Below are positions 40,744 to 57,761 of a stretch of 64,000 nucleotides of DNA, one piece after another (position 1 is the stretch's first letter; the number at the start of each line of letters is the position of its first letter). The notes beneath the pieces were generated by a model, which was not told where the DNA came from, ran no database searches, and saw only the letters and a list, made by a program, of their open reading frames with translations. Source of the stretch: Caminibacter mediatlanticus TB-2 (GTDB lineage: Bacteria; Campylobacterota; Campylobacteria; Campylobacterales; Nautiliaceae); assembly GCF_005843985.1 (NCBI RefSeq), contig NZ_CP040463.1:670001-734000 (forward strand), given 5' to 3'. The position numbers and the translations under genes are program-made.

Positions 40744-42276
40744 TTATTCGTGAGTAACAACAGGCATTGGAGGTTCGTTTTCAAGAACTTTTTTAGGGTC
40801 TTTATATTTTTTAAGCATTTTCATTCTATAATCATAAATGTCTTTCATTTCTCTAATGTCTTGCATCACTTGGAATACTCCATGCCAATGTGCATAATCT
40901 GGGCTTCCCATTACAGCAGCTTGTCTCATTCTTCTACCTTCATGATGCCATAGGTAGTAATATAGTTTGAAGAATGGGTCGCTCCATAAATCTGCTTTCA
41001 TTAAACCTTTTGCTTTTAATTCTTTTAACATTTTAGTTGCAAATGCTTTATATTGATTATAAACTTTTACATGTGCATCTGCTCTTTGGAAAAAGTTATT
41101 TGTAAATGTTGCTGCGTGGCATGCCATACAAACTTGTTTCATTTGAGCTCTTGCAGCTTCTGGCCCATTTGGATTACCAGCTTTTGGATTTCCTCTTGTA
41201 ACTGTGTTTTCAGTTACCTTTCCTCCACCATTCCAGAATGCCCAACCAGCTGTTTCATTTCCACCAGTTCTTAAAAAGCTTGCTGGTGCCCAAAGATTCC
41301 ATTTAAGTCTAAGTGAAACGTTATGAGTTGCTTTAAGACCATTGATTCCACTCATATGACAAGTAAAACATGTAGCAGCTCTTAGAGTTTTTCCAGGAAT
41401 TTGTTCACCTGTTTTGAAATTATAATCTTCTTCATTTGTATCAAAAATGTGTCCATGAACACTTGATTCAAAAATTTCTTTATCTGGATGATCAGGTCCT
41501 AAGTGACAGTTACTACATGCCATTGGATGTCTTGATTCTGCTGCTGAAAATTTATGTCTGCTATGACAAGAAAGACAATTTCCAACACCACCATCAGGAT
41601 AAAGTGATGCTATACCATCATTTGGCCAAGTAGCTGCATCAGGTTTACCATTTTTATCAAGTTTAATTATAGTACCATGACATTGAATACAAATATTTGC
41701 TACTGATAAATCTGATAATCTTGGATTTTTTTCATTTGCTCTGAAGAATTTGTCATCTTTTCTAATACCTTTTGTTAATGTTTTACCATCAGCAAGATAT
41801 TTTGGATGATTTCCTCTTAAAGTTTCATATCCATAAGCAAGTCTTGTCATAGCAATACCATGTGGATTTTTAGGAGTTGCAAGCCATTGAGCAGCACCTC
41901 TTGCATGACCTGAGTTTAAAAATTCAGTTACTTCTTTTGCGTGACATTTTGCACAAGTTACAGAAGATACTGCAATTTGAACTGTCCAATTAGCACCTTG
42001 CATTGGATGTGACTTAAATGCAGTTGGATAGTCTTTTGGTACAACGTGACATTCAACACATCCAACACCAGCTTTTGCGTGTTTTGAATGTTGCCAATCA
42101 GCAACAATTCCTGGGTCAGTTGTTTTATGACACATTAAACATTGGTCAGTGCTTACACCTTTTGGTTTGAAGTTTTTAAGTTTTACATAGTTAGGATTAG
42201 AATCTAAGCTGTTTGCTGCAAAAGCTAATGAGCTTATTGCTGCTAAGCTTAACCCTGCGCTTAACACTTTTTTCAT
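40744..42276 (-). CDS. hao: octaheme c cytochrome, hydroxylamine oxidoreductase-like (epsilon Hao)
   Basis: 510 residues with a signal peptide (1-20). Eight CxxCH motifs are seen in order: CLMCH, CVECH, CAKCH, CIQCH, CLSCH, CSNCH, CFTCH, CMACH, the number and spacing of the HAO family. Campylobacterota members are thought to lack the cross-linking Tyr and to work as reductases, turning nitrite into hydroxylamine or ammonium. This one is next to nap and has its own promoter with 11-bp repeats. A NapC/NrfH-type quinol oxidase carrying the same repeats lies at 54213. Acts in the periplasm. No nrfA is present in the window. Confidence 0.9.
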   Translation of the reverse strand: MKKVLSAGLSLAAISSLAFAANSLDSNPNYVKLKNFKPKGVSTDQCLMCHKTTDPGIVADWQHSKHAKAGVGCVECHVVPKDYPTAFKSHPMQGANWTVQIAVSSVTCAKCHAKEVTEFLNSGHARGAAQWLATPKNPHGIAMTRLAYGYETLRGNHPKYLADGKTLTKGIRKDDKFFRANEKNPRLSDLSVANICIQCHGTIIKLDKNGKPDAATWPNDGIASLYPDGGVGNCLSCHSRHKFSAAESRHPMACSNCHLGPDHPDKEIFESSVHGHIFDTNEEDYNFKTGEQIPGKTLRAATCFTCHMSGINGLKATHNVSLRLKWNLWAPASFLRTGGNETAGWAFWNGGGKVTENTVTRGNPKAGNPNGPEAARAQMKQVCMACHAATFTNNFFQRADAHVKVYNQYKAFATKMLKELKAKGLMKADLWSDPFFKLYYYLWHHEGRRMRQAAVMGSPDYAHWHGVFQVMQDIREMKDIYDYRMKMLKKYKDPKKVLENEPPMPVVTHE

Positions 42277-42305: not shown

Positions 42306-42337
42306 ATTCTATAAAAAGAGAGTGTTAAAAAAGTGCT
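42306..42337 (-). promoter_or_regulatory. hao promoter with tandem 11-bp operator
   Basis: Reading the minus strand: AGCACTTTTTT (42337-42327), AACACTCTCTT (42326-42316), 4 bases, TAGAAT (42311-42306) as -10 box. The two repeats occupy the -35 region, as for OmpR/PhoB-type activators. The same layout and spacing occur at 54161-54192. Confidence 0.6.
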
Positions 42338-42360
42338 TTTTAGAAGAATTAAGAAGTAAA

Positions 42361-42705
42361 TTAATATTTTCCTTTTAAAGAACCAAAGTATTTAATTTCT
42401 TCTATTTTCTTATCTTTATTTATATCTTCCACTACATTATCAATATTCATCTCTTTCATCATTTCTTCTAATTCTTCTTCACAATAGCTCATATGCATAT
42501 CAGCACTAATAATAAAAGGCATCTCTTCAATTTGTCTTAGTTTTTCAATTTCTTCTTCAACACATTCACCTTCTATTGTTATGATAATAATTCCTTTTTC
42601 TTTATCCCCAAAATGAACTTCACATAATGGTGATTCTTGTAAATTAAGCCATACTGCATCATAGTTTTTTGGTAATGTTTTAACAATAATACTTGAAATA
42701 TTCAT
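42361..42705 (-). CDS. napD: NapD, maturation chaperone of periplasmic nitrate reductase
   Basis: 114 residues: MNISSIIVKTLPKNYDAVWL, CEVHFGDKEKGIIIITIEGE and EMPFIISADMHMSYCEEEL, the ferredoxin-like NapD fold that binds the Tat signal of NapA. The C-terminal 30 residues form an acidic extension. Last gene of the nap operon, one base after napL. Confidence 0.9.
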   Translation of the reverse strand: MNISSIIVKTLPKNYDAVWLNLQESPLCEVHFGDKEKGIIIITIEGECVEEEIEKLRQIEEMPFIISADMHMSYCEEELEEMMKEMNIDNVVEDINKDKKIEEIKYFGSLKGKY

Positions 42706-42706
42706 T

Positions 42707-43660
42707 TTACTCCTTTATTTTCCAAATTAAAATTTCCGATGGAGAGTAGCTTATTAGTGTAGTTGAGTTAATATACTTCATTCCATTTAAAGGCATTGTA
42801 TGACCTTTTAGTAAATAGAGAGGTTTATTATATTGTGAATAAACCATAATATTATTTTTTTCATCATATTGAATTGCAAAAGTTTTTAAAGTAGGAGAAA
42901 GTGCTGCTGCATATGGTAAAAACTTTGCATCTAATGTATTTATAATTTTTCCATTTTCTGTGTAAATTCCAACTCTTTTATCGTTACTTGCATTAATGAT
43001 TTCGTTTTTTTGATAATCAAGTGATAGTGTTTTATCTTTATTAAATCCAATTATTGTAGCAATTTTTTTACCAGTTATTGTATTAGCTATTTTTATATTT
43101 CCACTCTCATCTCCAAGGGCTATTTTAGTTTTATCGTTATTTAGAGCATATGTTGAAAAAACATAACTATCAAGTTGAGTTGTGTATATGAATTTCTTTT
43201 TAGTTAAATCATAAAGTGTGATTTCATCACTTAGTTTTGCAAAAAAGATTTTTTTATTATCAATAAAATTTGCTTTCATTAATGTTTGATTTATAGTAAA
43301 TATTTTTTTTAATGTTTTAGTATTTAAATTATATATAAAAAGTGTTCTTTTAGCATTTTCATCTTCGGTTAATATTAAAACTTCTTTATTATCAGGTGAA
43401 ATATCAATTGAATATATTGGCATAGGAATTTTATCCCCCATAAAATCGTGAATTTTAGGAAGATTGATAGTTATTAAAGTTTTTAAATTATTAAAGTTTT
43501 TAATTATTATTGAGCCATTTTCAAGCCCAGCAATTAAATATTTGTTATTAAATGCAATTTTTGAGATGTAATAATCATATGTAATTTTTTTATGTGGTGT
43601 AATTACTTCATATCCAAATAACAAAATAGTTGTTATTATAAAAAATATAACTTTTTTCAT
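42707..43660 (-). CDS. napL: NapL, periplasmic beta-propeller protein of the nap operon
   Basis: 317 residues with a signal peptide (1-16) followed by WD40-like blades (LIAGLENGSIIIKNF, KTKIALGDESGNIKIAN, LILEDENA-type repeats). No catalytic residues recognised. The napF-napL-napD position is characteristic of Campylobacterota, where napL is kept but its role in nitrate reductase maturation or activity is unclear. The name rests on context plus the propeller character. Confidence 0.8.
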   Translation of the reverse strand: MKKVIFFIITTILLFGYEVITPHKKITYDYYISKIAFNNKYLIAGLENGSIIIKNFNNLKTLITINLPKIHDFMGDKIPMPIYSIDISPDNKEVLILTEDENAKRTLFIYNLNTKTLKKIFTINQTLMKANFIDNKKIFFAKLSDEITLYDLTKKKFIYTTQLDSYVFSTYALNNDKTKIALGDESGNIKIANTITGKKIATIIGFNKDKTLSLDYQKNEIINASNDKRVGIYTENGKIINTLDAKFLPYAAALSPTLKTFAIQYDEKNNIMVYSQYNKPLYLLKGHTMPLNGMKYINSTTLISYSPSEILIWKIKE

Positions 43661-43668
43661 TTTTTCTC

Positions 43669-44145
43669 CTAAACTATTTTTACTTCAATTGCATTTGTTG
43701 GGCATACACTTATGCAAAATCCACAAGCTGTGCATTTTTCTAAATCAATAATTGGATTAAACATTCCTTTATATATTGTAGCATTTTCTTCGCATATATC
43801 TTGACAAGAAAAGCAGATTGTTTGATTGTGAGCAATACACTTTTTTGGATTTATTAAAATCTCAGCATTTAATTTATTTTTTTTATGATGAATGTTTAAT
43901 ACATCATTAGGACATGCATTTGCACAATCATCACAAAAAGTACATCCGTTAATTCCAAATTTTATTATAGGTTTTTCTTCTTCAATATAAATAATTTTTT
44001 CATTGCAAGCAATCAAACAATCTTTACTCTTACACTCATTGCATTTTAAAAAGTCTTCTTTTTTTTCATAGTAAGGAGGAAAGATAAAAGATTTAAAAGG
44101 AGAGTTTTTAACTCTCCTAAAAAAGTTTCTTCTTGATTTATCCAT
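43669..44145 (-). CDS. napF: NapF, polyferredoxin of the nap operon
   Basis: 158 residues, no signal peptide: RRNFFRRVKNSPF start, then four cysteine clusters, CNECKSKDCLIAC, CTFCDDCANACPND, CIAHNQTICFSCQDIC and CTACGFCISVCPTN. A cytoplasmic iron-sulfur protein thought to help assemble Fe-S/NapA. Overlaps napB by one base (ATGA). Confidence 0.9.
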   Translation of the reverse strand: MDKSRRNFFRRVKNSPFKSFIFPPYYEKKEDFLKCNECKSKDCLIACNEKIIYIEEEKPIIKFGINGCTFCDDCANACPNDVLNIHHKKNKLNAEILINPKKCIAHNQTICFSCQDICEENATIYKGMFNPIIDLEKCTACGFCISVCPTNAIEVKIV

Positions 44146-44624
44146 TATTTGTTTTTTAAACTTTCAAACTTATTTTCAATTACTGGGTCAAGTTTAGCTT
44201 GTGGGGTATGACATAAAGTACAAAAATATCTACTACCAGCTACTTTATGAACAACTTTTCCATTTTCAAAATTATCAACAAAATGGTCTCTTGGCATTGG
44301 AATTACACCTAATGCTTTTGCATTTTGAGGCATATGACAATTTAAACACATATTATTATTTTTTGTAATTGGAACCATTCCTTCTACACTATGAGGTATC
44401 ATTGGAGGCGCAGTTACAAAAGATTTCTTAAATGGTTTTACTTTTCCCGGAATTGGTGCTTGGTCATTGTATTTAACTATTGGTAAATTTTGACTACCCT
44501 CAGTTAAAGGTGCTTTTCTAACACCTGTTATTTCAACATCTTTTTTTTGAGTTTGCATAGTTTGTTGGCATCCTGCAAAAAGAAATCCAGCTAATGCAAT
44601 AGTACTAATTAATAGTTTTTTCAT
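44145..44624 (-). CDS. napB: NapB, diheme cytochrome subunit of nitrate reductase
   Basis: 159 residues. Two heme motifs, CLNCH (about 92) and CTLCH (about 136), and the family stretch MIPHSVEGMVPITKNNNMC. It delivers electrons to NapA in the periplasm. Odd point: the signal ends LAGFLFAGCQQT, a good lipobox, so this NapB may be lipid-anchored, whereas NapB is normally soluble. Start overlaps the end of napH by 20 bases. Confidence 0.93.
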   Translation of the reverse strand: MKKLLISTIALAGFLFAGCQQTMQTQKKDVEITGVRKAPLTEGSQNLPIVKYNDQAPIPGKVKPFKKSFVTAPPMIPHSVEGMVPITKNNNMCLNCHMPQNAKALGVIPMPRDHFVDNFENGKVVHKVAGSRYFCTLCHTPQAKLDPVIENKFESLKNK

Positions 44625-45450
44625 TTTTTTCTCCTTTTTTTGAAATTATGTATCTTAGTGAAAATTTTAAAGCATTATCATTACACACTTCTATACATCT
44701 ACCACAATTTGTGCATTCTATTCCAGAGATAAAATCACTTTTTTTATTAATTACAGGTGCTAATACTTGATTTTCAGGACATATTTCTAAGCAATTACCA
44801 CAATTAGTGCAATTTTCTTTATTATGATAAACTCTAATTATATTTTTGCTACCAATTAATGAATAAGTTGCACCAAGAGGACAAATATGTCCACACCATC
44901 CGTTTTTTAAAACAAATGCATCAAATAAAAATATTGCTAAAAGCCATACCCAGCTAAATCCAACCCCAAAAGCAACTGCTCTTGTAAACATTCCAATAGG
45001 GCTAATAAATTCAAATGCCGCTGCACCTATAATGGCTGAAAGTATTAATAGAATAACCATAAATACATATCTAAATTTTTTAATTCTTTGAGTACTTACT
45101 AAGTTGTCTTTTTCATGATGTGTTTTTCTTCTAACAAATGCTGCTAAATCAGTAATTAAATTAACAGGACATACCCAACTACAATATGCTCTACCGCCAA
45201 TTACTCCATAGATAAAAAGTACTATTAATACACCAATAATTAAATTAGAGCTAATTACAGTACCAGCAAATACCATTTGTAATACCGCATAAGGGTCAGC
45301 CATTGGGATAGTATTTAAAATTTTAGAAAAACTAAGATTTCCTACTAATATTTTCCATCCATAATAATTTGCAGCAAAATATAAAAATAATATTGTAAAT
45401 TGAGAAACTCTTCTTAGGATTAGAAATCTATTTTTAATTATTGATCCCAT
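44605..45450 (-). CDS. napH: NapH, membrane quinol dehydrogenase subunit
   Basis: 281 residues: four membrane helices, the two conserved Cys motifs YCSWVCPVNLITD and CGHICPLGATY on the membrane face, and two ferredoxin sites CTNCGNCLEICPEN and CTNCGRCIEVCNDN at the C-terminus. With NapG it oxidises menaquinol for NapB/NapA, replacing NapC in this phylum. Overlaps napG by 13 bases. Confidence 0.94.
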   Translation of the reverse strand: MGSIIKNRFLILRRVSQFTILFLYFAANYYGWKILVGNLSFSKILNTIPMADPYAVLQMVFAGTVISSNLIIGVLIVLFIYGVIGGRAYCSWVCPVNLITDLAAFVRRKTHHEKDNLVSTQRIKKFRYVFMVILLILSAIIGAAAFEFISPIGMFTRAVAFGVGFSWVWLLAIFLFDAFVLKNGWCGHICPLGATYSLIGSKNIIRVYHNKENCTNCGNCLEICPENQVLAPVINKKSDFISGIECTNCGRCIEVCNDNALKFSLRYIISKKGEKNEKTIN

Positions 45451-46259
45451 TGTATGCCTTCATTTAAACTTTCAATTGCACTTTTTTGGCTTCTGCCAGT
45501 TTCAGTTGTTGTTTTTGTAGAGGCATTTTTTACTCTATTTTCATCTTTTTTATCCCATCCTTTAACATACCTATCTCCTGCTTTTCCTAAGAAGACTTCT
45601 CTTGGGAATACTTTTATTGCTGCTTTTTCAGTTACACACGCCATTTCACACATTCCACATCCAGTACATGCTTCTTCATGTACTACTGGAATTCTGTAAG
45701 CGTGTTTTCCTGTCCTTTCATTTTTTCTCCATTCAATGGTAATTGCTTTATCAAGCTCAGGACAAGCTCTATAACAAGCTGTACATTGTAATCCCCAAAA
45801 AGCTATACAACTACTTGGGTCAATTACTGCAACTCCCATTTTTGCAAAATCTATTGCTACTTCACCTTTATCGTTTTTACACATATCAGGAGTTAAAGCT
45901 CCTGTTGGGCAAGCAAATAAACATGGTATATCATCACACATAAAACAAGGTCCACTCCTTGGTATAAAATAAGGAGTACCAATTGGTTTTTTGTCTCCTG
46001 GTGCTGCAAGTTTTAGGGTTTCAATTTCTTTTCCATCAATAATTACTTTATTTTCTCTATTTTTACAAGCTTCAACACATAGACCGCATCTAATACATGT
46101 TTTTAAAAAATCCTCTTCTTTTAAAGCCCCAGGAGGGCGAAGAGTTAATGGTTTGTCTTTATTTTCTTCAACAAAAGCGCCAACTATACTTCCTCCAACA
46201 GCTGCTGCAGCAGTTGCTTGGATTAAGTTTGTTAAAAATGTGCGTCTTTTATTATCCAA
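45438..46259 (-). CDS. napG: NapG, periplasmic ferredoxin-type quinol dehydrogenase subunit
   Basis: 273 residues. Tat-type start KRRTFLTNLIQATAAAAVGG, then four Cys clusters: CIRCGLCVEACKN, CFMCDDIPCLFACPTG, CTACYRACPE and CTGCGMCEMACVTEKA. Exported folded with its Fe-S clusters and paired with NapH. Nine bases after napA. Confidence 0.95.
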   Translation of the reverse strand: MDNKRRTFLTNLIQATAAAAVGGSIVGAFVEENKDKPLTLRPPGALKEEDFLKTCIRCGLCVEACKNRENKVIIDGKEIETLKLAAPGDKKPIGTPYFIPRSGPCFMCDDIPCLFACPTGALTPDMCKNDKGEVAIDFAKMGVAVIDPSSCIAFWGLQCTACYRACPELDKAITIEWRKNERTGKHAYRIPVVHEEACTGCGMCEMACVTEKAAIKVFPREVFLGKAGDRYVKGWDKKDENRVKNASTKTTTETGRSQKSAIESLNEGIQWDQ

Positions 46260-46268
46260 AATATTTCC

Positions 46269-49103
46269 TTATGCTTTATAAATTTTTACTGCTGCTTTTT
46301 TATAATCGGTCTCTTTACTTAATGGACATGTTGCATCAAGACAAACTTTATTAATTAGAATTTTTTCATCAAACCAAGGAACCATTACAAGACCTCTTGG
46401 TGGTTTGTTTCTTCCTCTTGTCTCAATTCTTGCTTTAACTTTACCTCTTCTACTTTCAATTACCACTAAATCAAATCTTTGAAGTCCTAATTCTTTTGCA
46501 TCTTCTGGGTTCATATAACATAATGCTTCTGGCATTGCACGATAAAGCTCTGGTACTCTCATTGTCATAGTTCCAGTATGCCAATGTTCAAGTACTCTTC
46601 CTGTACATAGCCAGAAGTTATATCCATTTTTATCATATCTTGGGTCTTCTGGGTGAACCATAAATGGTCTAAAGAATATTTTTGCTTTATTTTTAAGATT
46701 AATTTTGCCTTTGCTTGCAACAGGTCCTTGAAGATTACCTCTTTTAATTGTTTTTAGAAGTGGGCCATAAAATGCAAATTTTTCACCTGGTTTTGCATAT
46801 TTTCTTGCATATGGGTCATAATCTACATTAAATCTCCATTTTGTCTCTTTACCATTAACAACTGGCCATCTAAGACCTCTTACTTTATGATATGTATCGA
46901 AATCTGCTAAGTCGTGAGCATGACCTAATCCAAATTTTCTATATTCTTCCCATAATGCTTTTTGAATAAAGAATCCATATCCTTTAAATGGTTTTCCATC
47001 ACTTCCTATAATTTCTCTTCCATCACCTGCTGCTTCTGTATTTGGATGAAGTTTGCCAGTTTGTGGGTTTTTAGCGATTGGATCTGGCCAAGGGAAATTT
47101 TTTCTATATTCTGGTCTATTAAATAGCACATCAAATAGTGTATCATCAGGTGAATATCCCATCTCTTTTGCTTTATCAAGCACATTTGGAAGTACTGTTC
47201 CATCAGGAAGTTTATGTTCTTTCCATACTTCTTTTAATTTAAATCTTTTTGAAAATTCTGCAATTGTCCATAAGTCTGGCATTGCAATTCCAGGTGCTAC
47301 TACTTGTTGTCTCCAATGTTGAGTTCTTCTTTCTGCATTACCATAAGCTCCCCATTTTTCATAAATCATAGCTATTGGTAAAATTAAATCAGCTACTCTT
47401 GCAGAAACACCAGGGTAACATTCATTTACAACAATAAAGTTATCCATAGTCCTTGCAGTTTTTAGCCAATGATTTGCATTTGCAGTATTTTGCCATGGGT
47501 TATTTACATGGACCCATACCCATTTAATTTTTCCTTCTTCCATATCTCTCATTATTTTTAGGAAGTGGCTACCAACTTTTGGATTTATAGTTCCTTCTGG
47601 AAGTTTCCATAATTTTTCAGTAATTTTTCTATGTTTTGGATTTGCTACAAGCATATCTGATGGAAGTCTATGAGCAAATGTTCCAACTTCTCTTGCAGTT
47701 CCACATGCACTTGGTTGACCTGTAAGAGAAAACGCTCCGTTTCCAGGAAGTGATTGTTTTCCAAGTAATAGATGAATCATATAAATTTGTTCATTAACCC
47801 AACTTCCTCTATAATGTTGGTTAAATCCCATAGTCCAGAAACTCACAACTTTTCTATTAGGGTCACAATAAAGGTCAGCTAATCTTTTAAGTTTAGTTTT
47901 AAAGCTATCAAGTGATTCTTTTTCATCACCTTTTGCAATTTTTGCTACATAATCAAGTGTATATGGCTCAACTGCTTTTTTGAAATCTTCAAAACTAATT
48001 TCCCAATGTAATACAGGTCCTTTTCCTTTATTGTGTTTCATCTCCATTATATCACCAGCTTTCCATTTACCAATTGCACTAAGTGCTATTGCTTCTTCTT
48101 CTGTTACCACTTTTGCATCTTGTTTTTTAATAGTTTGCATCTCTTTATCGCTATAACCAAGGGCTTTTGCTTTTTTAGGATTTCTTAATCCATATCCAAT
48201 ATCAGCATGTCCTGTTGCAAAAATTGTATGTTTTTTTACAAAATCTGAGTTTATAGCATTTCTATGTAAAATTTCTCTTGCTATGTAGTTTTGAATTGCA
48301 AGGTCAGTACCTGGTCTAAAAATAATTTCAATATCTGCTAAGTTAGAGCATCTATTTCTGTAAGTTGATAGGTTAACTACTATATATTTATCAGGATTAT
48401 TTAATTTTGCATCAGATACTCTTGCCCATAAAATTGGGTGGTTTTCTGCCATATTAGAACCCCAAGCAACAACAGTATCAGTAAGTTCAATATCATCATA
48501 ACATCCAGCAGGTTCATCAATTCCAAATGTTTGATAAAATCCAACAACTGCACTTGCCATACAGTGTCTTGCATTTGGGTCTATATTATTACTTCTCCAT
48601 CCACCTTTAACAAGTTTAACTGCTGCATATCCTTCTTGGATTGTATATTGTCCAGAACCAAAAATTGCAACACCAGTTGGTCCTAATTCATTATAGTATT
48701 TTTTAAATTGTTTCTCCATTTCATCAAATGCTCTTTTCCAGCTAACAGGTCTAAATTTACCATTTTTGTCAAATTCACCTTTATCATTCATTCTAAGAAG
48801 TGGTTGAGTCAATCTATCAGCACCATACATAATTTTAGCGTTAAAATAACCTTTAATACAGTTAATACCTCTGTTTACAGGAGAATAAGGGTCACCTTTT
48901 ACTGCTACTACTTTATTGTCTTTTGTAGCAAGCATAATTCCACATCCTGTCCCACAAAATCTACAAACAGCTTTATCCCATTGCCAATCTTGTTGTGTAT
49001 TTTCAGCTGCAGCTTTTGCTTCTTGTGGAATAGCAATTCCTGCTGCACTTGCAGCTGCTACTGCTGCTGTGGTTTTTAGAAAATCTCTTCTATTCATTGA
49101 CAT
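46269..49103 (-). CDS. napA: NapA, catalytic subunit of periplasmic nitrate reductase
   Basis: 944 residues. Tat signal [19 protein letters not shown], 4Fe-4S site [20 protein letters not shown], molybdopterin-binding [15 protein letters not shown] and [13 protein letters not shown], and the C-terminal [20 protein letters not shown] that is typical of nitrate reductases. Binds Mo-bis-MGD with a Cys ligand in [12 protein letters not shown]. Reduces nitrate to nitrite in the periplasm. Longer than enteric NapA (828), as in other Campylobacterota. First gene of napAGHBFLD; the molybdate transport genes diverge upstream. Confidence 0.98.
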
Positions 49104-49156
49104 TTTCTCTCTCCTTTTTTAATTTCCTTTTTACAATATAAATAATATCACTTTTT

Positions 49157-49174
49157 TTGTCGTATATGGTACAA
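49157..49174. promoter_or_regulatory. palindromic site between napA and modA
   Basis: TTGT-N10-ACAA (TTGTCGTATATGGTACAA) between the divergent nap and mod operons. Spacing differs from the Fnr/Crp box (TTGAT-N4-ATCAA). It could be bound by a Crp/Fnr relative or a molybdate regulator; nothing in the sequence decides. Confidence 0.3.
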
Positions 49175-49186
49175 TTTGACATAAAT

Positions 49187-49219
49187 TTAACTTTTTAAGC
49201 ACTTTTTTAGCACTTTTTT
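49187..49219 (+). promoter_or_regulatory. tandem 11-bp repeats between napA and modA
   Basis: TTAACTTTTTA (49187-49197, partial), AGCACTTTTTT (49198-49208), AGCACTTTTTT (49209-49219): two perfect and one degenerate 11-bp tandem copies. They end at the SD of modA (GGAGGG) and lie about 95 bases upstream of napA in inverted orientation. A single further copy, ATCACTTTTTT, stands at 49147-49157. Probably an upstream activator site for nap and/or a roadblock for mod. The 11-bp period matches OmpR/PhoB-family binding. Confidence 0.6.
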
Positions 49220-49230
49220 AGGAGGGTTTA

Positions 49231-49944
49231 ATGAGACTATTTTTTATTATATTTTTATCTACATTTGTATTTGCAAAAACTTTATACATAGCAGCATCAT
49301 CAAACATTAGTTATGCTATGAAAGACTTAATAAATGAATATAAAAAACAATATAAAAATACGTATATTAAAATAATTTATGCAAGTAGTGGAAAGCTTAC
49401 TGCTCAAATATTACATAATGCTCCGTATGATATATTTTTATCAGCTAATATGAAATATCCAGAAGTTTTGTATAAAAATAAAAAAGCCCTAACAAAACCA
49501 AAAGTATTTGCAAGAGGATTAATCTCTCTTTTTAGTGTGAAATATGATAATCTATCAATAAAATCTTTACTAACTGCAAAACAAATAGCAATAGCAAATC
49601 CAAAATTTGCACCATATGGAAAAGCTGCGATAGAAATGATGAAAAATGCAAAAATTTATAATAAGATTAAAGATAAATTAATATATTCAGAAACAGTTAC
49701 AGGAGTAATACCATATGTAATAAATTCAGCAGATATAGGTATAATTGCAAAATCATCACTTTATTCTAAAAAAATAAAAAATTTAGGAAAATATTATTAT
49801 AAAGATGTTAATATTTCACTTTATTCTCCTATAAATCAAGGAGTTGTTTTACTTACAAATAAAAAAGAAGCAAGGAATTTTTATAATTTTTTATTTACTA
49901 AAAAAGCAAAAAATATTTTTAAAAGGTATGGATATCTTGAATGA
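49231..49944 (+). CDS. modA: molybdate ABC transporter, periplasmic binding protein
   Basis: 237 residues with a signal peptide (1-15). Start of the mature protein LYIAASSNISYAMKDLINEY, then IKIIYASSGKLTAQILHNAP with ligand-binding Ser and YDIFLSANMKYPEVLY, and GVIPYVINSADIGII: the ModA fold. Captures molybdate (or tungstate) for the Mo cofactor of NapA, which is encoded divergently. SD AGGAGGG. Confidence 0.93.
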   Translation: MRLFFIIFLSTFVFAKTLYIAASSNISYAMKDLINEYKKQYKNTYIKIIYASSGKLTAQILHNAPYDIFLSANMKYPEVLYKNKKALTKPKVFARGLISLFSVKYDNLSIKSLLTAKQIAIANPKFAPYGKAAIEMMKNAKIYNKIKDKLIYSETVTGVIPYVINSADIGIIAKSSLYSKKIKNLGKYYYKDVNISLYSPINQGVVLLTNKKEARNFYNFLFTKKAKNIFKRYGYLE

Positions 49945-50311
49945 AATAGTTTGCAATTTAAAAGAGATCAAATCAAAAGATAATATAAATTTATTAACTT
50001 TTGAGAAAGATAATAATTTAATACAGGTTTTAATTTTACAAATGAATGTAGGTTTGAAACTTGGAGATAAAGCAGTTTTATATATAAAACCAACTAAAAT
50101 TTTTTTATCAAAGGAAAAATATTTATTTGATAATGTTTTACCTGTTAATATTTTAGATATAAAAAAAGGAAAAATAGTTTCATTAATAAAAGCAAAGTTT
50201 ATAGACTCTGTTTTTGAAGTTGTTATGTTGAATGAATATATAAATTTTGAAAAAAAAGCATTTATGCTATTTAAAGCCAGTGATATTTCAATTAGGAGAA
50301 AAGTTGATTGA
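49928..50311 (+). CDS. TOBE-domain molybdate-binding protein
   Basis: 127 residues from ATG 49928, preceded by AAAAGG; overlaps modA by 17 bases. Two TOBE-like halves can be seen: EIVCNLKEIKSKDNINLLTF...VGLKLGDKAVLYIKPTKIFLS and LPVNILDIKKGKIVSLIKAK...NFEKKAFMLFKASDISI, the Mop/ModE C-terminal fold that binds molybdate. It has no DNA-binding HTH, so it is a Mop-like storage or transport accessory protein rather than ModE. Its place between modA and modB is typical of Campylobacter-type mod operons. Confidence 0.75.
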   Translation: MDILNEIVCNLKEIKSKDNINLLTFEKDNNLIQVLILQMNVGLKLGDKAVLYIKPTKIFLSKEKYLFDNVLPVNILDIKKGKIVSLIKAKFIDSVFEVVMLNEYINFEKKAFMLFKASDISIRRKVD

Positions 50312-50984
50312 TTTTACTCCTTTTATTTTATCTTTTAAATTAGCATTTATTGTAACTGTTATTTTACTTATAATTTCTATCCCATATGCTTATTTTCTCT
50401 CAAATACAAAATCTAAAATAAAACCTTTTTTAGAAGCAATTACAGCCCTTCCTATTGTTTTACCACCCTCAGTCCTTGGTTTTTATCTTCTTATTTTATT
50501 ATCTCCAAATTCATTAATTGGAAGTGTTTTTTATGACTTATTTAATATTAAACTTGTTTTTAGTTTTGAGGGGTTAGTAGTTGCAAGTTGTATATATTCT
50601 TTTCCTTTTATGACCCAACCAATTCAAAGTGGGTTTGAGAGTATTCCAAAAAGTTTAATTGAAGCTTCGTATGTAAGTGGAAAAGGCAAAGTTATTACTC
50701 TTTTTAGAGTAATTCTTCCTAATATGAAACCGTTTTTATTAACTGCTATTGTTATAACTTTTGCTCATACTATTGGTGAATTTGGAGTTGTGTTGATGAT
50801 TGGAGGTAGTATTCCTGGAAAAACTGAGGTTGCAAGTGTTGCAATTTATAATTATGTTGAAATGCTTGATTATAAAAGCGCACATATTTATAGTGCAATT
50901 ATGCTTTTTATTAGCTTTATTGTGTTATTTATTGTTTATTTTATAAATTACAAAATTAAAAGAAAAGTAAATGATTTATATTGA
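50304..50984 (+). CDS. modB: molybdate ABC transporter, permease
   Basis: 226 residues. TTG 50304 is chosen because AGGAG is 6 bases upstream and the family N-terminus (IDFTPFILSFKLAFIVTVIL) follows; an upstream frame from 50247 overlaps the TOBE gene. Five to six helices with the permease motif EASYVSGKGKVITLFRVILP and AHTIGEFGVVLMIGGSIPGK. Overlaps modC by 14 bases. Confidence 0.92.
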   Translation: MIDFTPFILSFKLAFIVTVILLIISIPYAYFLSNTKSKIKPFLEAITALPIVLPPSVLGFYLLILLSPNSLIGSVFYDLFNIKLVFSFEGLVVASCIYSFPFMTQPIQSGFESIPKSLIEASYVSGKGKVITLFRVILPNMKPFLLTAIVITFAHTIGEFGVVLMIGGSIPGKTEVASVAIYNYVEMLDYKSAHIYSAIMLFISFIVLFIVYFINYKIKRKVNDLY

Positions 50985-51828
50985 TGTAGAGAAAAAACTT
51001 TTTAGTAGCAGTGGAGAGATAGATTTAAAAGTTAATGTAAAAATTAAAAAAGGTGAATTTATTGCTATTAAAGGAAGTAGTGGCAGTGGAAAAACTACAC
51101 TTTTAAGAATTATTGCAGGACTTGAAAAATCAAAAGGAGAGATAATAGTTTTTGATAAAGTTTGGCAAAATGAAAAAATATTTTTACCTCCTCAAAAAAG
51201 AGAAGTTGGATTTGTATTTCAAGATTATGCTCTTTTTCCAAATATGAGTGTGTTAGATAATTTATTGTATGTAAATAAAGATAAAAAGTTTGCATTAAAA
51301 CTGCTTGAAATGGTAGATTTAATTTCTCTAAAAGATAGATATCCTCAAATGTTAAGTGGTGGTCAAAAGCAAAGAGTTGCTTTAATTAGGGCTATAATAA
51401 AAAAACCAAAAATATTATTGCTTGATGAGCCTTTTTCAGCATTAGACCCTATAATGAGAGAAAAACTTCAAAATGATTTAATTTTAATTCATAAAGAGTT
51501 TAAATTAACTACTATTATGGTTTCTCATATGCCAAGTGAAATTTATAAACTTGCAAATAGAGTAGTTACTATTGAAAAAGGGGAAATATTAAACATCTCT
51601 TCTGCTATTAATTCACTTTTAGGATGTAAAGGTAGTGAAAAATTCTCAATAGAAGGAAAAATTATTGATATAATAAAAGCTGATATATTAAATATTGCTA
51701 TAATTGATATAGGAAATAAATTAGTTGAAGTTGTTATTTCAGAATATGAAAAAGAACAATTAAAAATAGGAGATATAGTAAGTATATCAACAAAAGCATT
51801 TAATTTAAATATTTCAAAAAAGGGTTAA
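50971..51828 (+). CDS. modC: molybdate ABC transporter, ATP-binding protein
   Basis: 285 residues. Walker A AIKGSSGSGKTTLLRIIAGL, Q-loop VFQDYALFPNMSV, signature MLSGGQKQRVALIRA, Walker B ILLLDEPFSALDP, His switch TIMVSHMPSEIY. A C-terminal TOBE domain (about 220-285) would bind molybdate and feed back on transport. Two bases upstream of the response regulator gene, so the two-component system is probably co-transcribed with mod. Confidence 0.94.
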   Translation: MIYIDVEKKLFSSSGEIDLKVNVKIKKGEFIAIKGSSGSGKTTLLRIIAGLEKSKGEIIVFDKVWQNEKIFLPPQKREVGFVFQDYALFPNMSVLDNLLYVNKDKKFALKLLEMVDLISLKDRYPQMLSGGQKQRVALIRAIIKKPKILLLDEPFSALDPIMREKLQNDLILIHKEFKLTTIMVSHMPSEIYKLANRVVTIEKGEILNISSAINSLLGCKGSEKFSIEGKIIDIIKADILNIAIIDIGNKLVEVVISEYEKEQLKIGDIVSISTKAFNLNISKKG

Positions 51829-51829
51829 A

Positions 51830-52477
51830 TTGAAAATTTTAGTTGTAGAAGATGATATTTTTATTGGAGAGAGTATAAAAGATTACTTTGAACTTCAAGG
51901 AAATAGGGTTGATTATTATTCATCCCCTCTAAAAGCATTAGAAGAGATATATCCAAGTAATTATGATATTTTTTTAATTGATATTAATATGCCGGAGATG
52001 AATGGATATGAATTTTATAACGAGTTAAAAAATTATGCTTCTGATGTACCTGTTATTTTTATTACTGCATATTCAGATATTGAACATATAGAAAAAGCAT
52101 TTGATTTAGGTGCTGCTGATTATATTAAAAAACCTTTTGAACTTAAAGAGCTTGAACTTAGAGTAAAAAGATTAGTATTTAAAAAGACTAACTGTGTTGA
52201 AATTACAGAAAATTATAAGTTTGATTTAGGCAAACTAAAACTTTTTTACAAAAATAAAGAAGTGGATTTAACTCAAAATGAAAAATATTTTTTAGAACTT
52301 TTAGTAAAAAATATTGGTCAAGTTGTTGATACTACTACTCTTAGAGATTATGTTTGGGATGGAAAGGATATTTGTAATAATACGATAAGGACTCATGTAA
52401 AAAAACTTAGAAGCAAACTTAAAGAAAATTTTATAAAAAATGTAAGAGGAAGTGGGTACAAAATTGAGAAACAGTAG
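51830..52477 (+). CDS. OmpR-family response regulator
   Basis: 215 residues from TTG 51830. Receiver domain with acidic pocket VEDD (7-9), phospho-acceptor Asp51 in FLIDINMPEMNGYEF, Thr in IFITAYSD and Lys in YIKKPFELKE. C-terminal winged helix (about 125-215) with LTQNEKYFLELLVKNIGQVV and IRTHVKKLRSKL...VRGSGYKI. Such regulators bind pairs of 11-bp direct repeats; repeats of that kind precede hao, nap/mod and the tetraheme gene in this window. Overlaps the kinase gene by 26 bases. Confidence 0.93.
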   Translation: MKILVVEDDIFIGESIKDYFELQGNRVDYYSSPLKALEEIYPSNYDIFLIDINMPEMNGYEFYNELKNYASDVPVIFITAYSDIEHIEKAFDLGAADYIKKPFELKELELRVKRLVFKKTNCVEITENYKFDLGKLKLFYKNKEVDLTQNEKYFLELLVKNIGQVVDTTTLRDYVWDGKDICNNTIRTHVKKLRSKLKENFIKNVRGSGYKIEKQ

Positions 52478-54071
52478 AGACTTTAAATTTGATTTAATTT
52501 TTGCATTTGTTATTTTTGCTTTTTTAATTGTTGTAAGTGTAACATATACGGCTATTTATATTTTTAGTGATTTAACGACAAAAGAATTTAAAGAAAAAAT
52601 AAAATTAATTGCTAATAACACATACATAAACTATAAAAATAAAGAAAAAACAATTGAAAAAACTCTCGAAGCTTTAACATCAAATGATATTTTTAATTCT
52701 ACTTTTAATGTGAATGATTTAGTCATAAAATCTCTTTTTAAAACTATGCTTGTATCTAATTCTGATTTAAAAGAGATAAATTTTTATAATAAATCTGGAC
52801 GACTTGTTTTTAGTTGTGGTAAGTATAGGAATGAAATTTTTTGTTTAACAAAAAATTTAACTTTAAAATTAGAGGATTTTGATATTGATAAAGTTTTAAT
52901 TAAAGAAAAATTGAACAAAAAGGGAATAGAATTTATTGCAATTAGTCCTTTAAGAACGAAAAATAATGGTTTTTTAGAGGTAAAAGCAGACTTTGTTTTT
53001 CCCAAAAAGCTTAATACTTTTTATGATTTAATAATAATTAATAATAAAGGAGATATATTTTATTCGAGTATAAAAAATTATTATGTCAAAAATATTTTTG
53101 ATTTATATAATTATTTATTAGCAAATAAAATTTTAAAGACAAATGAAGGATTTGTAAGTGATGATATTTATGTAAAAAGTTTTTCTAAAACAATAAAGTT
53201 TATTTTTTTACAAAATAAAAATGTAATTGCAAAAACTGATACAGCATCTCAAAAAATGGCTTTTATATTATTAATAATTTCTATTGTTATTGCAATTCCT
53301 CTTGGAGTCTTTTTTTCTAAGCCTTTATATACTTTTTATGAGGAATTAGATAAAAGAGTAAAAAAAGAGATAGAAAAAAGAAGAAAAAAAGAAGAAATTT
53401 TAGCCCATCAAAGTAAGCTTGCAGCTCTTGGTGAAATGCTTGGAAATATTGCTCATCAGTGGAGGCATCCTTTAACAAGGCTATCTTTACTTATTCAAAA
53501 TTTAGAAATGGCTTATAAGATGAATAAATTAGATGAGAATAGATTTAATAATTTTAAAGAAAATGCAATTTATCAGATAAATTATATGTCACAAACTATT
53601 GATGATTTTACAAATTTCTTTAAAAAAGATACTAAAAAAATAGAGTTTTGTCCAAAAGATATTATTAATGATGCTTTAAAGTTACTTGAAGCAAGAATTA
53701 AGCAAAATGGAGTCGAAATAGTGTTAGATATTAAAAAAATTGAACCTATTTATGGATACAAAACAGAATTTTCACAAGTTATTTTAAATATTATTAATAA
53801 TGCAATTGATGTGCTAAAAGAAAGGAATATTGAAAATAAAAAAATTTTTATAAGAATTAATGGAAAAAAAATAGAAATTGAAGATAATGCGGGGGGAATA
53901 CCTGAGAATATAAAAGATAAAATATTTGAACCATATTTTACAACAAAATTTCAATCCCAAGGCACAGGAATTGGTCTTTATATGAGTAAAGTTATTATAA
54001 CAGAACATTTCAATGGAAAACTTTATGCATATAATTCACAAAATGGTGCAGTTTTTGTTATAGAGGTGTAA
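52452..54071 (+). CDS. membrane sensor histidine kinase
   Basis: 539 residues counting from GTG 52452 (TTG 52464 is possible). Two membrane helices (about 14-38 and 270-295) enclose a 230-residue periplasmic sensor with no recognised domain but two Cys near 118 and 127 (FSCGKYRNEIFC). HisKA follows with LAALGEMLGNIAHQWRHPLT (phospho-His about 335), then HATPase_c with N box ILNIINNAIDVLK, G1 IEDNAGGIP and GTGIGLYMSK. Its placement between mod/nap and the tetraheme gene suggests nitrate, nitrite or a related anaerobic signal; the stimulus is not visible in the sequence. Confidence 0.9.
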   Translation: MGTKLRNSRDFKFDLIFAFVIFAFLIVVSVTYTAIYIFSDLTTKEFKEKIKLIANNTYINYKNKEKTIEKTLEALTSNDIFNSTFNVNDLVIKSLFKTMLVSNSDLKEINFYNKSGRLVFSCGKYRNEIFCLTKNLTLKLEDFDIDKVLIKEKLNKKGIEFIAISPLRTKNNGFLEVKADFVFPKKLNTFYDLIIINNKGDIFYSSIKNYYVKNIFDLYNYLLANKILKTNEGFVSDDIYVKSFSKTIKFIFLQNKNVIAKTDTASQKMAFILLIISIVIAIPLGVFFSKPLYTFYEELDKRVKKEIEKRRKKEEILAHQSKLAALGEMLGNIAHQWRHPLTRLSLLIQNLEMAYKMNKLDENRFNNFKENAIYQINYMSQTIDDFTNFFKKDTKKIEFCPKDIINDALKLLEARIKQNGVEIVLDIKKIEPIYGYKTEFSQVILNIINNAIDVLKERNIENKKIFIRINGKKIEIEDNAGGIPENIKDKIFEPYFTTKFQSQGTGIGLYMSKVIITEHFNGKLYAYNSQNGAVFVIEV

Positions 54072-54160
54072 AAATACTATTTCTAAAAATTTAATTTAAA
54101 AAAGTCTTGCAATCGCACAATTTTATTATTTTCATAATACATTATTACATTTTAACTAAT

Positions 54161-54192
54161 AGCACTTTTTTAGCACTTAAATTATTTATAAT
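54161..54192 (+). promoter_or_regulatory. promoter of the tetraheme gene with tandem 11-bp operator
   Basis: AGCACTTTTTT (54161-54171), AGCACTTAAAT (54172-54182), 4 bases, TATAAT (54187-54192). The repeats replace the -35 box. Geometry is identical to the hao promoter. Confidence 0.65.
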
Positions 54193-54212: not shown

Positions 54213-54782
54213 ATGAAAAAAGCAACACTTGGTGCATTAATTGCTGGTGCTGTAATTGGTCTTGGTATTTCTTATGTAACTGCAATTATGGTAGATAAAA
54301 CATCTACTCCTGAGTTTTGTGCAAGTTGTCATACTATGAAACCAATGGTAGATAGTTTTAAATTTAGTGTTCATGGTGGAAATAATCCTCAAGGTTTTGC
54401 AGCAACTCATTGTACTGATTGCCATTTGCCTCATAATTCTTTAATTGGGTATTTAATTGCAAAAGGAATAAGTGGTACTAGAGATGCATTAGCAGAATTT
54501 GGAATTATTAAAAAAGTTGATTTTAAAGATAATTTTTGGGAAATGGATAAATATGTTTATGATAGTGGGTGTTTAAAATGTCATAAAGGAATTGAAAAAT
54601 TAAAAGATAAAAATGTAGGAGAAGTAATTGGTTTAACTCTTAATTCACAAAAAGTACATAAAGAGTTTTACTGGAATAAAAAAGAAAGAGGTGAAAAAGT
54701 TAGTTGTGTAGCTTGTCATAATGATAATACAATGACTCATTTTGCTCATCCAAATCTACTTGAAACTTTACAATCTGAATAA
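54213..54782 (+). CDS. NapC/NrfH-family tetraheme cytochrome c (quinol dehydrogenase)
   Basis: 189 residues. N-terminal anchor GALIAGAVIGLGISYVTAIM, then four CxxCH: CASCH, CTDCH, CLKCH and CVACH, with THFAHPNLLE at the end. Size and motif pattern match NrfH/NapC/CycX. These oxidise menaquinol and pass electrons to a periplasmic reductase. Nap has its own NapGH, and no nrfA is present, so the likely partner is the Hao-like cytochrome, whose promoter shares the same operator. Confidence 0.9.
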   Translation: MKKATLGALIAGAVIGLGISYVTAIMVDKTSTPEFCASCHTMKPMVDSFKFSVHGGNNPQGFAATHCTDCHLPHNSLIGYLIAKGISGTRDALAEFGIIKKVDFKDNFWEMDKYVYDSGCLKCHKGIEKLKDKNVGEVIGLTLNSQKVHKEFYWNKKERGEKVSCVACHNDNTMTHFAHPNLLETLQSE

Positions 54783-54858: not shown

Positions 54859-55281
54859 ATGAAGAAAATTTTGCTTACTTTTTTTATGGCGATATCAATG
54901 TTTGCATTTGAATGGAGTGGTAAAGTTAATTGGGCAATGAGTTATGACTTGGCAAAACAGATTGCTTTAAAAGAAAATAAGTTAATTATGGTGGATATAG
55001 CTCTTACTAATTGTCCTCCTTGTAGATATCTTGCTAAAAATGTATATACAAATGATGAGGTAGCGAATTATATTAACAAAAATTTTTTACCTCTGTTTTA
55101 TTTAGCAGATAAGGATGAATTACCACCAATAGTTCAAAATTATTTTACAGGTTCTACTCCTACAATTTTATTTTTAAAACCAAGTGGTGAACTTGTTTAT
55201 TCATTCATTGGTGCAAGGCCTCCAAAAACATTTTTATCTATTTTAAAAGAAGTAAATTCAAAATATAAAGGAAAAAAATGA
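54859..55281 (+). CDS. periplasmic thioredoxin-fold protein (CPPC), CcsX/ResA-like
   Basis: 140 residues, signal peptide 1-16 (LLTFFMAISMFAFEW). Active site TNCPPCRYLAK (about 54), cis-Pro loop GSTPTILFLKPSGE. Overlaps ccsBA by 4 bases, so it probably keeps the CxxCH cysteines of apocytochromes reduced for heme ligation. A related protein with CRYC stands beside ccdA at 39144. TACAAT at 54831-54836 may be its -10 box. Confidence 0.83.
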   Translation: MKKILLTFFMAISMFAFEWSGKVNWAMSYDLAKQIALKENKLIMVDIALTNCPPCRYLAKNVYTNDEVANYINKNFLPLFYLADKDELPPIVQNYFTGSTPTILFLKPSGELVYSFIGARPPKTFLSILKEVNSKYKGKK

Positions 55282-57761
55282 ATACTACACTAAAAAAAAT
55301 TTATAATGTCTTTTTTTCGCTTGAAGTTGCAGTTATATTATCTTTGATTTTTATGGCAGGTCAAATATATGCAACTCTTGGGTTTAATACTTTACAAGAA
55401 GCATGGGGTGGAGTTTATGAGACTAAGTGGTTTGAAGCTATTATGTGGCTTCTTGGAATAAATTTAATTGGCGTTATGTTTAAATATAAAACTTATAAAA
55501 AAACACCAATCTTTATTTTGCATTTATCTATTATCGTGATTTTAATAGGGGCGGCCATAACAAGATATTTTGGATATGAAGGTACTCTTCATTTAAGAAA
55601 TGGTGAAACTAAAAATTACATTATGGTAGAGCGCTCAAAAGCAAATCCTGCTGATGTATATAAAAAAGATTTAGGATTTAGTATAAAACTTGATAAATTT
55701 GTTTTAAAACATTACCCTGGAAGTATGCAGCCAAGTAGTTATGAGAGTTTTATAGAAGTAATTGATAAAAATAAAAGTTTTAAATATCATATCTATATGA
55801 ACCATATTTTAGTTTATAAAGGATATAGGTTTTATCAGGCAAGTTATGATATGGATGGTAAAGGCAGTATATTATCTGTAAATCATGACCCAGGTATGTG
55901 GGTTGCTTATTTTGGATATATTTTAATGGCTATTGGATTTTTATGGAGTATGATATATAAAAAGTCAAGGTTTATGATGACAGTTAGAAAATTAAAACAG
56001 AGTGGACTTTTTGCATTTTTATTATTTATTCTTTTTAGTGGAGTTAATGTAAGGGCATTTGACTTAGGTGAGTTTGCAAAAAAAAGCAAAGCAGTTAGTG
56101 ATGAATGGGCTAAAGTATTAGTCCAACAACGTGGTAGAATTGAGCCAATGGATACATTAGATTTAGATATAGTTCATAAATTAACACTAAAATCAAAACT
56201 TTATGGGCTTAACTATAATCAAATAGTAGCTGGAATGGTTGCATATCCAGAAGAGTTTCAAAAACTTCCTTTGATTTATGTAGGTCATCCTGCTATTAGA
56301 AAGCTTCTTGGAATTGAAGGAAAGTATGCTCCATATAATGCGTTTTTTATGCCAAATGGAGATTTTAAATTTACAAAAGAAATTGATAAAGCATTTAAGA
56401 TTCCTGATAAAGATAGAACAGTTTTAGATAGAGAGTGGATAAAACTAAATGAGAGAGTATATATCGCATTTGAAGTATATACAGCAAAAATTTTTAAAAT
56501 TTTTCCAACTCCTAATTCAAAAATGATGAATTACAGATGGTTTAGTATAGCTGATTTACAAAATGCGGTAAAAAGCGGGATGATGAATCCTATTGATGCT
56601 CAATTTTATTTTAATTTATTTAAAAATTTAGCAGATGGTATTAAAACATATAATGTCGAATTAGAGAAAAAAACAAGAGAAAAAATATATGAACTTCAAA
56701 AAACATATTCTGGTGAAATTTTGCCAAGTGAAAGTAGAATTAAATGGGAGATTTTTTATAACAGAGCTCAAATTTTTCCAATGTTAATTGGTATTTATTC
56801 AACTCTTGGCTTAATAGCTATGTTTTTAGGATTTTTTGAGATTATTAGACAAAAAAGATTTAAAAAAATTGAAACTTTAATAGTTGGACTTGGATGGTTA
56901 GCGTTAATTTTACATACAGCTAATATGCTTCTTAGATGGTATATCTCAGGTCATGCTCCTTGGTCAGATGCTTACGAATCAATTATATTTATTGCTTGGG
57001 GTAGTGCATTTGCATCAGTATTCTTTTTTAGAAAATCAATGCTTGCACTTGGGGCTGGTCTTTTTGTAGCAGGTATGTTTATGATGGTAGCACATCTTAA
57101 TAATATTAATCCTCAAATTACAAATTTAGTACCAGTTCTTAAAAGTTATTGGTTATTAATTCATGTTGCTGTAATTACTTCAAGTTATGGATTCTTAGCA
57201 GTTGGTGGAATGCTTGGATTTTTAAACCTTATTTTATTTGCAATGAATAAAAAATATAATCTTGAAAATCAAATTAAACAACTTAATAATGTAATATATC
57301 TTGCTTTATACATTGGTCTTGCATTACTTAGTGTTGGAACATTTCTTGGTGGAGTTTGGGCAAATGAGAGTTGGGGTAGATATTGGTCTTGGGACCCAAA
57401 AGAGACTTGGAGTTTAATTAGTATGATAGTTTATGCAATTACAATTCATGGAAAAATGATTCCAAAACTAAGAGGTGAATTTATATTCTCACTTCTTTCA
57501 TTTTTAGCATTTTTCTATATTTTATTTACATATTTTGGGGTAAATTTCTATATTGCACAAGGTCTTCATAGTTATGGTCAAGGTGTAGCTGATGGTTATG
57601 GTTGGGTAAATATTTTATTTGCTGGAATGGGTGCATGGTTTGTAGTAGTTTTAGTTTCAATATTTATGGCAATTTCAAGTAAAATATCAAAACCTGTTGT
57701 AATTAAAGAAGAAAATAAAAATAATGATTATCATCCACAAGGGGAAAATAATGGTATGTGA
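55278..57761 (+). CDS. ccsBA: cytochrome c synthase CcsBA (ResB-ResC fusion)
   Basis: 827 residues. N-terminal CcsB/ResB part (about 1-240, helices near 15-35, 50-70 and 200-220 with a periplasmic domain containing LHLRNGETKNYIMVERSK), a linker, then CcsA/ResC (about 490-800) with the heme-handling WWD stretch WANESWGRYWSWDPKETW, and conserved His in ILHTANMLLRW, LLIHVAVITSSYG and YAITIHGKM. It exports heme and attaches it to CxxCH motifs (system II). The fusion is typical of Campylobacterota. It serves the many cytochromes encoded here. Followed by hem genes. Confidence 0.95.
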   Translation: MNTTLKKIYNVFFSLEVAVILSLIFMAGQIYATLGFNTLQEAWGGVYETKWFEAIMWLLGINLIGVMFKYKTYKKTPIFILHLSIIVILIGAAITRYFGYEGTLHLRNGETKNYIMVERSKANPADVYKKDLGFSIKLDKFVLKHYPGSMQPSSYESFIEVIDKNKSFKYHIYMNHILVYKGYRFYQASYDMDGKGSILSVNHDPGMWVAYFGYILMAIGFLWSMIYKKSRFMMTVRKLKQSGLFAFLLFILFSGVNVRAFDLGEFAKKSKAVSDEWAKVLVQQRGRIEPMDTLDLDIVHKLTLKSKLYGLNYNQIVAGMVAYPEEFQKLPLIYVGHPAIRKLLGIEGKYAPYNAFFMPNGDFKFTKEIDKAFKIPDKDRTVLDREWIKLNERVYIAFEVYTAKIFKIFPTPNSKMMNYRWFSIADLQNAVKSGMMNPIDAQFYFNLFKNLADGIKTYNVELEKKTREKIYELQKTYSGEILPSESRIKWEIFYNRAQIFPMLIGIYSTLGLIAMFLGFFEIIRQKRFKKIETLIVGLGWLALILHTANMLLRWYISGHAPWSDAYESIIFIAWGSAFASVFFFRKSMLALGAGLFVAGMFMMVAHLNNINPQITNLVPVLKSYWLLIHVAVITSSYGFLAVGGMLGFLNLILFAMNKKYNLENQIKQLNNVIYLALYIGLALLSVGTFLGGVWANESWGRYWSWDPKETWSLISMIVYAITIHGKMIPKLRGEFIFSLLSFLAFFYILFTYFGVNFYIAQGLHSYGQGVADGYGWVNILFAGMGAWFVVVLVSIFMAISSKISKPVVIKEENKNNDYHPQGENNGM

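Follow-up and report, generated by a model that had tools for sequence, protein, structure and literature searches.

OmpR/PhoB-family response regulators bind direct repeats of 10-11 bp that overlap the -35 region of their promoters. At the Escherichia coli phoA promoter the pho box, read by the OmpR-family regulator PhoB, consists of 11-bp direct repeats that replace the -35 element, with the arrangement GTCAT-N6-GTCAC-N10-TATAGT confirmed in E. coli genomes. Here we describe a tandem 11-bp repeat upstream of hao, cycB and nap in a 64,000-nucleotide stretch of the Caminibacter mediatlanticus TB-2 genome (contig NZ_CP040463.1, positions 670,001 to 734,000; hereafter the window). At hao and cycB its spacing, RRCAC-N6-RRCAC-N10-TANAAT, equals that of phoA; the half-site (GTCA in the pho box versus RRCAC), the targets and the sensor differ. 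The repeats are very likely the operator of an OmpR/PhoB-family response regulator encoded at the same locus, which would control Nap, Hao and CycB as one regulon by PhoB-like activation.

The closest published system is the PceP two-component system of Sulfurospirillum, which likewise has a Campylobacterota OmpR-family regulator of a respiratory reductase, with direct repeats that overlap -35 at most promoters, though one pair of divergent promoters has them ~50 bp farther upstream; it differs in its half-site (CTATW), in repeats described as 17 bp apart and in its tetrachloroethene regulon (PMC7755780). RacRS of Campylobacter jejuni is also a Campylobacterota two-component system tied to electron-acceptor choice, but it is reported to repress fumarate use with nitrate or trimethylamine N-oxide, and its targets differ (PMC6682613). 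The target genes of the window are those of reverse-HURM nitrate ammonification in Nautilia profundicola, which are more highly expressed in nitrate-grown cells (PMC2628731, PMC3701875); quantitative PCR (qPCR) showed napA, haoA and cycB transcripts up 4.6-, 8.5- and 7.1-fold with nitrate and sulfide compared with ammonium and polysulfide (PMC3701875). The terms promoter, operon, two-component and regulat- are absent from that 2013 paper (PMC3701875), and only har/hcp has been linked to an FNR-like box in this species (PMC2628731). In the literature searched, nap, hao and cycB of Nautiliales have neither a described operator nor a named regulator, which agrees with a first-pass annotation of the window that knew of no description of the element. 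The regulon and operator are new, within the known OmpR/PhoB kind. A nitrate-inducible pathway for which the literature searched named no regulator now has a specific candidate regulator, an operator, a spacing rule and a predicted three-promoter regulon.

Tandem repeats at the hao, cycB and nap promoters

The first-pass annotation had placed three tandem sites in the window, upstream of hao, in the spacer between nap and mod, and upstream of a NapC/NrfH-type tetraheme gene (cycB), and had seen no other such tandem in the intergenic DNA. All three were found at those positions (Table 1). The tandem AGCACTTTTTT-A(A/G)CAC matched the genome three times, at the hao, nap and cycB sites, all inside 12 kb, and no crowd of unrelated genome-wide matches appeared. 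A whole-genome pattern search with ARCACTTNNNNARCAC also returned these three sites alone from 1,685,887 bases, with no match for the reversed control, and for AGCACTTTTTTARCAC a model of independent, identically distributed bases predicts 0.003 matches in 1.686 Mb. When the -10 box was included (RGCACTY-N4-RRCAC-N10-TANNNT), exactly two matches remained, at hao and cycB; the reversed control had none in the source genome and 11 relatives. Lone copies of AGCACTTTTTT with at most one mismatch were not enriched in the window (12 seen versus 8.1 expected, with 14 of 100 shuffles reaching 12), so the signal is carried by the tandem. A partial third copy at nap had also been noted; it is present (TTAACTTTTTA, 49187-49197), but it is weak (7 of 11 positions) and not conserved in relatives.

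Conservation was examined in 21 genomes of the Nautiliaceae, a family of deep-sea vent bacteria; 19 of them have hao orthologues. Almost every genome with the relevant regions assembled has the site ahead of hao, cycB and nap, across at least five genera, which bears out the proposal of one operator common to the three and conserved upstream of hao and nap orthologues. Half-sites vary between GGCAC, GACAC, AGCAC and AACAC, giving a generalised site RRCAC-N6-RRCAC. The 11-mer first proposed as consensus does mark a shared operator, but the true consensus is R(G/A)CAC-N6-R(G/A)CAC, often with GGCAC or GACAC, and the T-run is typical, not obligatory. A TANAAT box begins exactly 10 nucleotides (nt) past the second RRCAC in all hao and cycB promoters (38/38), and the promoters lack an evident -35 hexamer. 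The repeat occupies the -35 position, always equally far from -10, as in PhoB-like class II promoters, and the OmpR/PhoB-type geometry suggested earlier therefore holds at constant spacing.

The nap site is arranged differently. Its orientation is opposite to that of nap; the gap to a TATNAT box is 49 or 50 nt in 18/18 Nautiliaceae, and in most of them the napA ATG is ~86 nt away. The sister-family genome G030 has an inverted nap site 39 nt from the box, one helical turn nearer as counted on the sequence; G113 has a class II arrangement instead of a distant inverted site, and G088 carries four tandem copies. The order regulator, kinase, cycB, thioredoxin, ccsBA is kept wherever the Nautiliaceae locus is assembled, and regulator and kinase genes always adjoin cycB where contigs allow. 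nap is divergent in most Nautiliaceae, mod is present only in some, and hao lies ~10 kb off or, as in N. profundicola, elsewhere on the chromosome.

A regulator subfamily that co-occurs with the putative operator

The regulator encoded in the window has Response_reg (98 bits) and Trans_reg_C (60 bits) domains, as expected of the OmpR/PhoB family, and D8, D9, D51, T79 and K101 are invariant in 26 regulator sequences. It is not a PhoB orthologue (RespRegPhoBBctds, 117.7 bits versus a cut-off of 270; TIGR02154 PhoB, 94.8 versus 296.2). The pattern RRCAC-N6-RRCAC-N10-TANAAT and a profile of the regulator were both scanned over 399 genomes of the order. The regulator subfamily separated cleanly (at least 261 bits, the next 240) and was present in 44 genomes. 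Genomes with both, regulator only, strict pattern only and neither numbered 35/9/3/352 (Fisher P = 2.5e-38), and 16/9/2/351 when Nautiliaceae were left out (P = 5e-20); with the unfiltered pattern the latter counts were 19/6/46/307 (P = 2e-11). No association was found for the reversed-pattern control (P = 0.82).

Families f9, f10 and f20 have a different target: here the site precedes a gene for a ~770-amino-acid protein containing 12 CxxCH motifs; two thioredoxin-like genes come next, and the regulator gene lies in the same operon as this 12-heme cytochrome or is divergent from it. Recognition helices in these families are mostly (C/N)(D/S)NTLRTxIKKLRxKL, close to CNNTIRTHVKKLRSKL in the window, and other paralogues resemble DNATIRAEISRLKK. 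That a single operator goes with a single regulator subfamily, even though the targets are of two kinds, points to the regulator as the reader of the site and not to a factor of the target genes. The adjacent two-component system, which the first-pass annotation had picked as the controlling one, is thus the likely regulator, both by conserved adjacency and by co-occurrence elsewhere with a different target.

We infer binding, activation and a nitrogen-oxyanion or redox signal from the sites, their spacing and conservation and the co-occurrence of the regulator. The double-Cache (dCache) sensor kinase would phosphorylate the response regulator, which would bind as a head-to-tail dimer with one subunit per RRCAC half-site of the 11-bp direct repeat. 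Where the site takes the place of -35 and leaves 10 nt to the -10 box, at hao and cycB, activation would be of the PhoB-like class II type, which involves contact with sigma-70 region 4; at nap it would come from ~50 nt upstream of the -10 box and in inverted orientation. The result would be a single regulon for periplasmic nitrate-to-hydroxylamine reduction comprising Nap, Hao, CycB and the thioredoxin/CcsBA assembly genes.

Several observations weigh against this model. The Fisher tests take no account of phylogeny, and the sites had already been seen when the strict filter was set. No strict full site was found in 9 of the 44 regulator genomes, though two of these, G044 and G084, have a core site before the cytochrome gene. 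A few further sites in G100, G062, G015 and G088 are of unclear meaning. The qPCR comparison in N. profundicola changed the electron donor too, which confounds the nitrate effect (PMC3701875).

Table 1. Predicted regulatory sites and genes of the locus (positions within the window)
Feature	Position	Strand	Remarks
Octaheme hydroxylamine oxidoreductase-like cytochrome gene hao, reverse-HURM nitrite reductase	40744..42276	-	pathway role from PMC3701875
hao -10 box TAGAAT	42306..42311	-	4 nt after second 11-mer, 10 nt after second RRCAC
Predicted hao operator, tandem AGCACTTTTTT (42337-42327) and AACACTCTCTT (42326-42316)	42316..42337	-	kept in 20 hao promoters
nap operon: napA, napG, napH, napB, napF, napL-like, napD	42361..49103	-	
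Probable nap -10 box TATTAT	49142..49147	-	50 nt from nap operator; TATNAT at 49-50 nt in 18/18 Nautiliaceae
Predicted nap operator, two perfect AGCACTTTTTT copies (49198-49208, 49209-49219)	49198..49219	+	inverted relative to nap; position relative to nap conserved
Molybdate transporter genes modABC	49231..51828	+	upstream of regulator gene, probably cotranscribed with it
OmpR/PhoB-family response regulator gene	51830..52477	+	receiver D51 and K101; recognition helix CNNTIRTHVKKLRSKL
Sensor histidine kinase gene	52452..54071	+	periplasmic double-Cache domain (invariant C122/C131), HisKA with H335, HATPase
Predicted cycB operator, tandem AGCACTTTTTT (54161-54171) and AGCACTTAAAT (54172-54182)	54161..54182	+	kept in 18 cycB promoters
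cycB -10 box TATAAT	54187..54192	+	4 nt after second 11-mer, 10 nt after second RRCAC
cycB: NapC/NrfH/cM552-type tetraheme quinol oxidase gene, Hao partner	54213..54782	+	N. profundicola orthologue CycB (PMC3701875)
Thioredoxin-like and CcsBA-type cytochrome c assembly protein genes	54859..57761	+	probably in cycB operon; order kept in relatives

Alternative readings and the signal sensed

The spacer site had been linked to both nap and mod, with molybdenum uptake as a possible target. The repeats of the window end right before the AGGAGG of modA, abutting its Shine-Dalgarno sequence, and in G075 it is the regulator gene that follows the repeats in this way; the copies might therefore control modABC, and hence the regulator operon, for example as a roadblock or by translational control. 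We consider this unlikely. There is no -10 box behind the site in the window, the gap between it and modA or the regulator gene ranges widely (from -31 to -110 or more), and several relatives keep the site without modABC at the locus; genus g52 instead has a molybdenum-cofactor (Moco) riboswitch ahead of mod, with the site well upstream. Because the distance to the nap -10 box is fixed and that to the divergent gene varies, the operator in the spacer is assigned by its position to nap, not to mod. The link to nap stands and that to mod does not, molybdenum uptake is unsupported as a target, and the variable distance and the missing mod genes led us to reject modABC as a member of the regulon. 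The g52 riboswitch, a Moco/tungsten element (RF01055, 72-81 bits), was found in the napA-modA spacer of L171, L172, L175, L176, L177 and L179 (e.g. L179:17007-16889), where it lies in the modABC leader; the genes for regulator and kinase come after modABC. It is absent from the window, and Rfam gave no RNA element at the window sites.

Other readings concern the protein that binds and its effect. An FNR/CRP-type regulator of the kind that controls nitrate respiration in other Campylobacterota (NssR, NnrR/HcpR) could bind the sites, leaving the adjacent system with other targets: TTGAC-N4-GTCA boxes occur upstream of napA in five genomes of three other families (L345-L349), and a TTGAC-N4-GTCAA box, originally described in N. 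profundicola (PMC2628731), is present at hcp in several Nautiliaceae. This is very unlikely. The element is not palindromic, its half-sites recurring in the same direction every 11 bp, and it co-occurs with the response-regulator subfamily even at a different target gene. The Nautiliaceae hao, cycB and nap promoters have no credible TTAAC/TTGAC-N4 palindrome, only two-mismatch matches at scattered positions, and FNR/NssR control of these genes was rejected for want of boxes. The regulator might instead bind as a repressor, or act both ways, and hold off RNA polymerase at hao and cycB until a signal releases it. This would suit a site that overlaps the -35 region, and the two-component regulator RacR of C. 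jejuni represses the use of fumarate in the presence of nitrate (PMC6682613). The reading is nevertheless decidedly improbable, since the spacing is that of the PhoB-activated phoA promoter, the promoters have no evident -35 hexamer, the nap site is too far upstream to block polymerase, and napA, haoA and cycB rise together on nitrate (PMC3701875). Coincidence or AT-rich promoter texture is hardly credible. In its favour, T-runs abound, lone copies of the 11-mer show no enrichment in the window, and across the genome the core ARCAC-N6-ARCAC by itself is no commoner than chance (five matches versus six for the reversed pattern), but conservation in at least five genera, the 10-nt spacing in 38/38 promoters and the zero reversed-pattern matches in these genomes refute chance. 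Activation by the adjacent two-component system remains the preferred reading.

The nap promoters of the five other-family genomes have no tandem beside their TTGAC-N4-GTCA boxes. FNR-type boxes at nap in the other sampled Campylobacterales families versus the putative two-component operator in Nautiliaceae and the sister family suggest a change of regulator at nap in the Nautiliaceae lineage. Of 11 hcp loci checked, ten had no tandem, and hcp/har was rejected as part of the tandem regulon; the one match, in G012, was left unexamined. With an FNR-type palindrome at hcp, the cytoplasmic hydroxylamine reductase gene, in several relatives, and no tandem in its locus save in G012, the cytoplasmic step seems to be separately controlled.

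The periplasmic domain of the kinase, modelled alone, is predicted to have a double Cache fold (predicted local distance difference test score 85; best PDB matches 2p7j and 3lid, template-modelling score ~0.72), Pfam dCache_1 reached 17.5 bits versus a cut-off of 45, and a fold search with the whole kinase returned mainly kinase-core matches. NarXL/NarQP-type nitrate sensing was rejected: the locus has a Trans_reg_C regulator, a HisKA kinase and a dCache sensor fold, and no LuxR/GerE-type regulator. Cys122 and Cys131, on neighbouring strands of the modelled dCache domain, are invariant in 17/17 hao-type kinases checked, including that of G012 of the sister family, and absent from four 12-heme-type sister kinases. 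No napA was found at E<=1e-100 in G012 (99% complete), which nevertheless keeps the regulator, hao, cycB and both sites, so the conserved core of the predicted regulon is the nitrite-reducing module, and nitrate is no likelier as the signal than nitrite or a redox cue. The nitrate-to-ammonium regulon of the first-pass annotation is supported in its regulator and its targets hao, nap and cycB, as far as can be read from the DNA; nitrate itself is one candidate signal among several. It is possible, though doubtful, that the kinase is a new type of nitrogen-oxide or redox sensor, its dCache domain carrying the C122/C131 pair, and responds to nitrite, hydroxylamine or periplasmic redox state, not nitrate. 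If so, such a kinase would couple a toxic intermediate to the expression of the whole periplasmic pathway.

Related putative operators in other genomes

The uncharacterised 12-heme operon also lies behind this operator, and its two-component system belongs to the subfamily found in the window (L255, L256, L259, L262, L268, L270-L272, L277, L278, L283 and L284). Its cytochrome is ExtM-like by NCBIfam, far below cut-off, and a PDB search with it gave no match. Another full site stands at L272:4775 (G338), ahead of a CcsBA-type cytochrome assembly gene close to the regulator, an arrangement that parallels ccsBA downstream of cycB in the window. The wider response-regulator subfamily and the shared operator offer a handle on this operon.

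A second hao copy, 72-78% identical and split over two frames, was found at G062:C1:62113-63698 with a degenerate tandem site still upstream. In two genomes of genus g2 (L248:2327 and L249:2315) a conserved full site precedes the gene of a 98-amino-acid protein without a Pfam match. Family f6, genus g56 (L263-L266, L275, L276 and L286), has (G/A)(G/A)CACATTTTTG(G/A)CAC-N10-TANAAT tandems before genes for LemA-like and signal-peptide-bearing products; these loci are without the regulator subfamily, and the tandems probably represent another OmpR-type regulon with a related half-site.

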